Shown here: one piece after another, positions 17,905-41,141 of the stretch
Position numbering within the stretch: the stretch's first letter is position 1
Layout: every line of letters begins with the position of its first letter
NCBI GenBank assembly: GCA_026014725.1
Contig: JAOZHV010000059.1
Span: 62,001-126,000, forward strand
DNA from: Candidatus Bathyarchaeota archaeon
Lineage (GTDB): Archaea; Thermoproteota; Bathyarchaeia; Bathyarchaeales; Bathycorpusculaceae
Direction: 5' to 3'
Length of the DNA: 64,000 nt
Translations under genes and position numbers: made by a program
The notes under the pieces: generated by a model
Seen by the model: the letters and a program-made list of their open reading frames with translations, nothing else
Databases searched by the model: none
Told to the model about the DNA's origin: nothing

Positions 17905-18030
17905 ATATTTCTTTGTTAGTTGTTGAAAAAAGTGTTTTTCTCGTCTACAACATCAACCTATTGGTTGCTTAAAAAGTTGTTTTTTGTGTTTTGTTTTGGG
18001 TTGCTTGTTGGTTGTGGACGTTGCACAAGT
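17905..18030 (-). repeat. dispersed intergenic element, copy B
   Basis: On the minus strand this copy has CGTCCACAACCA (18020-18009), GGTTGATGTTGTA (17958-17946) and CAACAACTAA (17925-17916). All three blocks occur identically in the copy at 39141-39270, with block spacings of 62 and 33 here against 69 and 31 there. Sequence between blocks is partly alike. It has no coding potential. Confidence 0.65.
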
Positions 18031-18161
18031 GGGGCAGGAGTGTGAGGTTTTGTGTTTTCTTTGGTTTGTTAGAGTTGGTTTGGTTACGTGAGTGCAGTTT
18101 GAATGTAACAATGCTTAAATAAACCCCGTGTGACTTTCACTCTGAAAAGGAGCATCGGGAA

Positions 18162-26330: not shown

Positions 26331-26494
26331 GTAATCTGCCTCAACCAACCAACAATCCATAGCAAACGCTAAAACAAAAAAGAAACCGTTCTCAAAGTCT
26401 CCAAGAAGAAGATGAATAAGGGCGGTCGTTTCTTCTTCTAATACTAGAAAAAACAAGTACACCCCAAATTTTGTGCGGCTATGGGAAACGCTTA

Positions 26495-39053: not shown

Positions 39054-39088
39054 CTTAATATAGGGGGATAGGGGGTAGCTGCAGAGCA
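39054..39088 (+). repeat. conserved G-rich intergenic module, copy 2
   Basis: CTTAATA runs into TAGGGGGATAGGGG (39061-39074), then six bases and GCAGAGCA (39081-39088). It repeats the layout on the minus strand at 14082-14047. It lies 53 bases upstream of copy A of the dispersed element, so it could be the promoter of a noncoding transcript. Confidence 0.5.
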
Positions 39089-39140
39089 GCACGCTTTTCT
39101 CCAACAAAAGAATATCAAACAACCCCTTCAGCGCTGCACT

Positions 39141-39270
39141 GCTTGTGGCATCGTCCACAACCAGCCAGCTACCCAAAACCCAAATCAGAAAGCAAAACGC
39201 AACGTTTTCCACAATCCACTGGTTGATGTTGTACTAAGGACTCCCTTTCAACAACAACTAAAGAAAAAAC
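39141..39270 (+). repeat. dispersed intergenic element, copy A (candidate structured RNA)
   Basis: Blocks CGTCCACAACCA (39152-39163), GGTTGATGTTGTA (39221-39233) and CAACAACTAA (39252-39261) match the copy at 17905-18030. CAACCAG (39159-39165) can pair with CTGGTTG (39219-39225), and the other copy keeps five of these pairs. No frame of useful length crosses it. Confidence 0.6.
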
Positions 39271-39476: not shown

Positions 39477-41141
39477 ATGAAAAAAACAATAAAAACACTC
39501 GTCGCCTTAACCATAATACTGCCTATTATTTTAGGCATATTTGCGACAAACACGCAGGCAGCAGTCAACCAATCCACCAACAGAGTTTTTCTCGGACTCA
39601 GCGGCTACCCAACAAGCACCACACAACTTGACAACATAATCAGCACCATGAAAGCTAACGGCTTAAACACATACCGCATGAGCGCAAACCCAGCATGGTC
39701 AGGCGGCCCACACCCATACCACGAAAACTTTGTCCAATACTTACTAGACCACAGCGACTTCACCATCATCGTAGACCGTAACCACCTCTATCCACCCACC
39801 GAAGAATCAGCGACATCAGCCCGCAATAACTGGGCAACTGTAAGAAACAGCATCTTTGAAGTCTTGGAAGCATATCCAAACAACCCACGTGTAATGGTGG
39901 AACTCATCAACGAGTACGTATCATCAGACTTCTACAGCCGCATGCAAAGCTTAGTTACTGAAATTCGAGCCGCAGGATACACAAACCCCATAGTTGTGAA
40001 CAAATGGAACCAAGCTTGGACAACCATAAACGACCCACTGGATAACACACTCCAAGGCTACCACTTCTACTTCAACAGTTGGAGCCCATCAGGCGCCCTA
40101 TCGCAGATGCAAACCGCCCAATCTAAAGGTATCAAACTCATCAACACAGAAGTTGGAGCAGACTACAACGAATACAACAGTTACACTTCAGCCACAGTTT
40201 CAGAATTGAACCAATTTCTTTCAGAGACAGCAAGCATGGGCATAGGCAACACTGTATGGATGAATGAAAACCTCAACAACATGCCAAGATACCAACAATT
40301 GAACCTAGATTTCCCAACAGTGACAGCACCTCAGCAATCAACTAACCCGACGCCTACTCCAACCGCCACCCCCACTCCAACACCAACGGCAACACCCACT
40401 CCAAAACCAACTGCTCAACCAACACCATCACCGACACCTAATCCAACCCCAACACCTACACCAAAGCCTTCACCAACGCCCACTCCAACACCAACACCGA
40501 CGCCAGCAACAACAATTACAAACCAAGATGGCTTCGAAACCGCAGCTTTGACTGGCTGGAGCGGAATAAGCAAAACCTCCGGTGAAACAGTATCAGTCAC
40601 AAAAAACAGACCACATCACGGCTCTTACAGTGCACTCTTCTACACAAACGGTCTAAGTAACGGACGTGAAAATGCTTTCTTGCGAAAGACCATAAACATG
40701 CAAAACGCTTATGCAAGAGGCTACTTTAATATCGCTGGTAGCATAACAGGCTCTTCAATTCTAAAGGACAACGACGACAGATTCTACCTGCTGAGATTTG
40801 CGGCAAATCAGGGAGACGTAGCTTGGGCTGGAATAAGACGCGAAAACGGCATTAACAAGTGGACACTTTATGCAGGCGACACCTACAAGACATCATCAAC
40901 AATACCAATATCAACAGATAGATGGTATAATGTAGAACTACACTGGAACGCAGCCCAACGCTTAGCTGAAATGTTCGTGGACGGCACAAAAATACTGGAA
41001 ATACGAGCAAACAGTGGAACCAACGCAAATATCACGTCCGTTGACATGGGAATAATATACACCAACAACGTTCAAAACACCTTGTTAGTCTTTGGTGATT
41101 GCTTCAGGCTGTCAAATAACTTCAACGGCGCAAGCCATTAG
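39477..41141 (+). CDS. secreted GH5-like glycoside hydrolase with Pro/Thr linker and C-terminal beta-sandwich
   Basis: This 554-residue protein has a signal peptide (about 1-28), a catalytic (beta/alpha)8 region with ELINEY (Glu near 146, acid/base) and INTEVGAD (Glu near 224, nucleophile), as in cellulase-type GH5 enzymes. A Pro/Thr repeat linker runs from about 289 to 344, and a jelly-roll domain of about 200 residues ends the protein, probably carbohydrate-binding. ATG at 39477 follows GGAGAGAGAG. It likely hydrolyses extracellular beta-glucan; exact substrate unknown. Catalytic and binding domains split by a P/T linker is the design of secreted plant-polymer enzymes. Confidence 0.75.
40345..40510 (+). 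repeat. Pro/Thr-coding low-complexity linker
   Basis: Degenerate repeats of a CCAACACC-like unit encode alternating Pro and Thr between the two domains of the glycosidase. It is part of the gene, not a separate element. Confidence 0.8.

Follow-up and report, generated by a model that had tools for sequence, protein, structure and literature searches.

The closest described systems to the repeat reported here are the CREE (Correia elements) of Neisseria, the Sulfolobus MITEs and the ISH3 family of insertion sequences. The CREE are small non-coding elements bounded by terminal inverted repeats (TIRs), they lie between genes in more than 100 copies and their conserved core can affect neighbouring genes (PMC2649163). 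These effects (promoter, IHF and RNase III) have been shown by experiment (PMC2649163). The Bathyarchaeia family is likewise small, non-coding, TIR-bounded and intergenic with a conserved core; it differs from the CREE in its ends, in its archaeal host and in the persistence of the core without ends, and any effect of its core on neighbouring genes is a prediction. The MITEs SM1-SM4 are present in 25 to 44 copies per family in S. solfataricus P2 (summarised in PMC10969869). They resemble the Bathyarchaeia family in being archaeal, non-autonomous and present in tens of copies; compared by description only, the Bathyarchaeia family belongs to another host lineage, has more copies and keeps a conserved, co-varying hairpin in copies that lack ends (PMC10969869). 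The ISH3 family is described by NCBIfam model NF033541. An insertion sequence (IS) with the same ends as the repeat encodes an ISH3-like transposase in a sister genome, whereas the core element itself has no transposase. No earlier report of the family was found in the open-access literature, a scope outside which most subscription papers fall.

The window analysed is a stretch of 64,000 nucleotides from a 2.56-Mb Bathyarchaeia genome (G000). An earlier note on this DNA had described three exact blocks shared by two intergenic sites; all three are present at both, and their places, order and spacings proved exact. Block CGTCCACAACCA lies at 39152 on the plus strand in copy 1 and at 18020 on the minus strand in copy 2, block GGTTGATGTTGTA at 39221 (+) and 17958 (-), and block CAACAACTAA at 39252 (+) and 17925 (-). 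The start-to-start spacings are 69 and 31 bases in copy 1 and 62 and 33 bases in copy 2. We built a sequence-only profile (R1) from 11 copies, its E-values rest on a shortened calibration. R1 places the core of copy 1 at 39138..39270 on the plus strand (103.5 bits, E=3e-31) and the core of copy 2 at 17907..18031 on the minus strand (82 bits, E=1.5e-24), both being training-set scores. Copy 1 is found between a small plus-strand ORF ending at about 38985 and a plus-strand ORF with its ATG at 39477. No TIR above threshold was found in either flank of copy 1, nor for copy 2.

From 5' to 3' the core comprises a hairpin H1 (CTGCTTGTGG ... CCACAACCAG), an A/C-rich middle, a hairpin H2 (GNTTGTTGTTGT ... 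ACAACAACAACTA) and then CTAGAAAAA or similar. In copy 1 the predicted H1 spans 39139..39164 (+), with CTGCTTGTGG at 39139-39148, the loop CATCGT and CCACAACCAG at 39155-39164, and contains one C x C mismatch. The predicted H2 spans 39220..39260 (+), with arms at 39220-39231 and 39249-39260 around a variable loop. A third copy in the window, diverged and weaker, lies at 26334..26454 (+) in a 140-bp gap between two plus-strand ORFs (36 bits, E=3.4e-10, model positions 13-133). The 5' part before the CAACCA block is absent from this copy, and its 3' stem is of the GA-type subfamily (AAGAAGA...TCTTCTT).

The repeat occurs far above chance and the family is real. With up to one mismatch allowed, block GGTTGATGTTGTA has 30 matches in the genome and its reversed control 6, and 12 of the 30 sites are true copies across the whole ~130 bp (one of the 12 is partial). 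The search for further copies that the earlier note had proposed, over this genome and its relatives, returned many, and these are intergenic. R1 identifies about 62 at E<0.001 in G000; at E<=0.1, sister genomes of the same genus contain 99 (G018), 81 (G009), 51 (G015), 17 (G013) and 15 (G011), making presence patchy within the genus. These genomes are draft MAGs and the gene calls are simple ORF picks. Twelve genomes from other families of the order, searched as a control for the specificity of R1, gave no convincing match (best E=0.005), and all hits of a pattern scan over named genomes were in Candidatus Bathyarchaeota MAGs. For 88.5% of copies the nearest relative is in the same genome, against 25.5% after shuffling. 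The copies therefore cluster by genome, which argues for spread or homogenisation within each species lineage. Integron attC sites were rejected as an identity for the repeat; the copies are dispersed over many contigs in both orientations, with no clustered same-orientation array.

Inverted repeats (TTATCAGTAGATCAAAA) flank the core at a distance of 25-45 bp in four copies of G000 and in two sister genomes. The complete units measure 173-194 bp and have 4-bp target duplications. In G018 convergent TIR pairs 173-184 bp apart enclose the core, and the four G000 copies with both ends form units of 184-194 bp. The TIR motif CAGTAGATCAAAA occurs 76 times in G018 against 1 control occurrence, and TIR-motif hits in G009 number 55 against 4. 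Exact 4-bp direct repeats are present at 14 of 30 TIR pairs where 5.6 are expected (p<0.0005), the pairs tested including two ISH3 elements and further cargoes that share the ends. The duplicated targets are TTAA, TTAT and ATAA.

The same ends bound a 1113-bp IS in G018, which has TTAT on both sides. This IS encodes a 347-aa DDE transposase matching NF033541 (174 bits, E=4e-51) and also PF01609. The match is below the curated cut-off of NF033541 (174 against 225 bits), so the protein is ISH3-like only and the family label is approximate. G013 contains a 682-bp ISH3 remnant between the same ends. An ISH3-type transposase was not found in G000, G015, G009 or G011.

The core units, the ISH3-like IS of G018 and unrelated short cargoes all carry the same ends, which places the repeat in a MITE-type family. 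It is multicopy, short and non-coding, it has TIRs and target-site duplications, and an autonomous partner with the same ends is present in sister genomes. We conclude that the repeat is very probably the core of a MITE-type family of non-autonomous mini-transposons, found in one Bathyarchaeia genus and moved by an ISH3-type transposase. The earlier note had offered a dispersed ncRNA, a MITE-like remnant and a protein-binding element as possibilities. The second is the best supported, given the TIR-bounded copies, the 4-bp duplications and the ISH3-like IS with the same ends, and the duplications it had named as the mark of a mobile element are present at TIR pairs of the family.

The mobile unit would consist of the ~130-bp core between inverted ends TTATCAGTAGATCAAAA, 173-194 bp in total. 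It would insert at TTAA, TTAT or ATAA targets with a 4-bp duplication, often at TATA-box-like intergenic sites. The shared ends suggest that an ISH3 (IS4-superfamily) DDE transposase supplied mobility in trans. Since no ISH3-like gene was found in G000, most of the copies there probably go back to old insertions and have since lost their ends through decay. Hairpins dispersed between genes would also fit REP/RAYT-type palindromic repeats moved by a Y1 transposase, but this is extremely improbable: TIRs and target duplications of the DDE type are present instead, and the Y1 transposase (PF01797) is absent from G000, G018, G013 and G011, all of them genomes with many copies.

Other sequences share these ends. 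G018 has a second repeat family with the same TIRs, a length of 254-278 bp and a different interior (GTTCTTGTGGAAGAAA ... TTTCACATTCACATGG ...), its members are L186, L188, L190-L195, L198 and L202. At L216-L221 of G009 the same ends surround cargoes of 177-182, 290 and 419 bp, which by eye are unrelated to the core. The TIR motif is also found 30-340 bases from the contig ends C8, C9, C33, C34, C45, C70 and C123 of G009, a pattern as if a longer repeated IS with these ends had broken the assembly; no obvious transposase was seen in those contig ends of G009 that were read. Tandem or closely spaced cores are present at L108, L061/L096, L101 and L098 of G018 and at L135 of G015, and L108 has two cores within one terminal-repeat pair.

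A TATA-like sequence followed by a G-run motif (TAATATAGGGGGATAGGGGGTAGCTGCAGAGCAGCA) is located at 39056..39091 (+), 5' of copy 1. A relative of this motif, the similarity being judged by eye, flanks many TIR-bearing copies in the sister genomes. In its recurrent form a TATA-like box is followed by GGGAGGGG and then by GAGAGGTCGCGTGG or CAGAGCAACA, and it accompanies many insertions, as a rule on just one side. The recurrent TATA-box/GGGAGGGG motif may be a preferred target (a class of promoter) or a separate dispersed element.

Most core copies, including both of those first described in the window, have no recognisable TIR, a share that may be biased by the 122 copies analysed in detail being mostly better-scoring ones. 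Identity to the consensus in G015 is 0.84 for the core and 0.51 for the TIR/linker region (control 0.37); for G000 and G013 the core reaches 0.73-0.80, with the ends at background level. The contrast between core and ends in G015 is not predicted by plain MITE decay. Such conservation suggests either that the core is selected or that it spreads or is converted without ends.

Spread without ends would extend the mini-transposon explanation, in that the core would be copied or homogenised without TIRs by gene conversion or template switching. Paralogues cease to be alike at the borders of the core, not at the TIRs, and breaks in identity also occur internally, near CCACAACC and where H2 begins. 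The pairs L031/L036 and L159/L162 have common cores in different flanks, and the clustering of copies by genome agrees with such a process. However, no enzyme is known for it, and G015 copies retain weak TIR traces at the right distance, which point to an origin by transposition. We regard this extension as possible, if on the unlikely side.

Two hairpins are predicted in the core, a stable one on the 3' side and a weaker one on the 5' side. Over 109 copies H2 folds well below shuffled sequence (mean z -1.71, 69% under -1), H1 is weakly supported (mean z -0.55 to -0.75) and folding of the whole element is ordinary (mean z -0.56). A middle hairpin was rejected (mean z about -0.3), as was a local CAAYC/GGTTG hairpin in which the partner strand does not co-vary. 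A long-range stem between CAACCAG and CTGGTTG, proposed from the two copies alone, is contradicted by the larger set, in which CAACCA is constant and its supposed partner is GGTTG, GCTTG, GATTG or GGAAG.

H2 arms fall mainly into a TTG/CAA and a GA/TCTTC type. For TTGTTG arms the pairing energy is -12.4 kcal/mol with the 3' arms of their own copies and -2.2 to -3.8 kcal/mol with GA-type 3' arms, and shuffled 3' arms reach the observed mean pairing in 0 of 200 trials. Within each type the preference for the own arm is small. The two arms have changed together between subfamilies, and compensatory changes are present in the stem. As the copies are related, this covariation amounts to one clear switch of the whole stem plus smaller changes, and so to few independent events. 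Both strands fold alike, so the pairing fits RNA or cruciform DNA equally. A search against Rfam matched only a tRNA at the gathering threshold in the window, with nothing at E<1 around copy 1. The structured RNA put forward in the earlier note is thus supported in part, by a 3' hairpin with co-varying arms; no family, conserved promoter or fixed strand was found for it, and an RNA product would be hypothetical.

The core does not behave as coding sequence, in agreement with the observation from the two copies that no frame is conserved. A short conserved peptide in the frame TTSxQPKPxAExKKQ... would account for the lower variability at second codon positions that two of five genomes show (p about 0.02), but frameshifts occur, a start codon is absent and in-frame stops show no real depletion, with 22 seen where column shuffling predicts 27. 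Such a peptide is very hard to credit. In-frame insertion into genes was also rejected. Seven overlapping ORFs of at least 150 aa, judged by eye from their translations, look like open-frame extensions or antisense frames, the frames being open across the A/C-rich element beside a gene.

Over 117 copies the arrangements of the flanking genes are even: +|+ 35, -|- 26, -|+ 27 and +|- 29. There is no co-directional bias (p=0.31) and convergent gene pairs are included, so orientation is random. Most of the first 12 copies had been found upstream of genes on the same strand, a trend that is gone with 117 copies; the even arrangements make a general promoter or 5' UTR role unlikely, and that candidate was dropped. 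The same data bear on a dispersed ncRNA gene family or a cis-regulatory leader or promoter element. The H2 hairpin, the early upstream trend and a TATA-bearing 5' flank common to L032-L034 would suit either, but with random orientation, no conserved promoter found upstream of the core, no Rfam match and the ordinary folding of the whole element we judge both improbable.

Copies L032, L033 and L034 have about 70 bp of extra 5' similarity with repeated GTATATAC (TATA-like) units, and are possibly a copy type with its own promoter. Some copies (L035, L055 and L157), as read, lie a few dozen bases from apparent tRNA genes.

Several genes have a copy next to them in more than one species, for example rpl44e (L042/L141) and, on its 3' side, purQ (L163/L100). 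Such shared positions are commoner than a rough expectation, but the core identity of these pairs is that of random cross-genome pairs, and the members of a pair may therefore have inserted separately or been converted. A shared gene border may reflect the repeated use of favoured sites, and positional orthology was rejected as proof of function, the core identity being ordinary. Shared positions, the conservation of the core where TIRs are lost and the joint switch of the H2 arms between the TTG/CAA and GA/TCTTC types would all be expected of an exapted structured element, an RNA hairpin or a protein site, selected after its ends decayed. This too would extend the mini-transposon explanation. 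It is rendered doubtful by the ordinary likeness of the shared-position pairs, by random orientation and convergent sites, and by patchy presence within the genus. With similar reserve we consider a transposon-derived structured hairpin cassette, either kept for use or multiplying without ends, dispersed in each genome over the gaps between some 60 to 100 pairs of genes, with its stem replaced whole in each subfamily and pairing preserved; this reading is rather unlikely.

Given its intergenic position in either orientation, the core would most likely have a local effect. The hairpin, as DNA or in read-through transcripts, could alter termination, processing or stability. Our best guess, by analogy with the Correia elements (PMC2649163, PMC10969869), is that the core would act on transcript ends or stability.

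The repeat is in all probability a new MITE-type family with ISH3-like ends and a conserved hairpin core in Bathyarchaeia, and as such is mostly explained. Its main peculiarity is that copies which have lost the transposon ends still keep the hairpin-bearing core. In Bathyarchaeia, a large group for which no cultured genetics exists, the family adds a short mobile element tied to an ISH3-like transposase by shared ends. Should selection act on the core, archaea would have a counterpart of the Correia elements of Neisseria that could be tested: small transposon relics with an influence on neighbouring transcripts.
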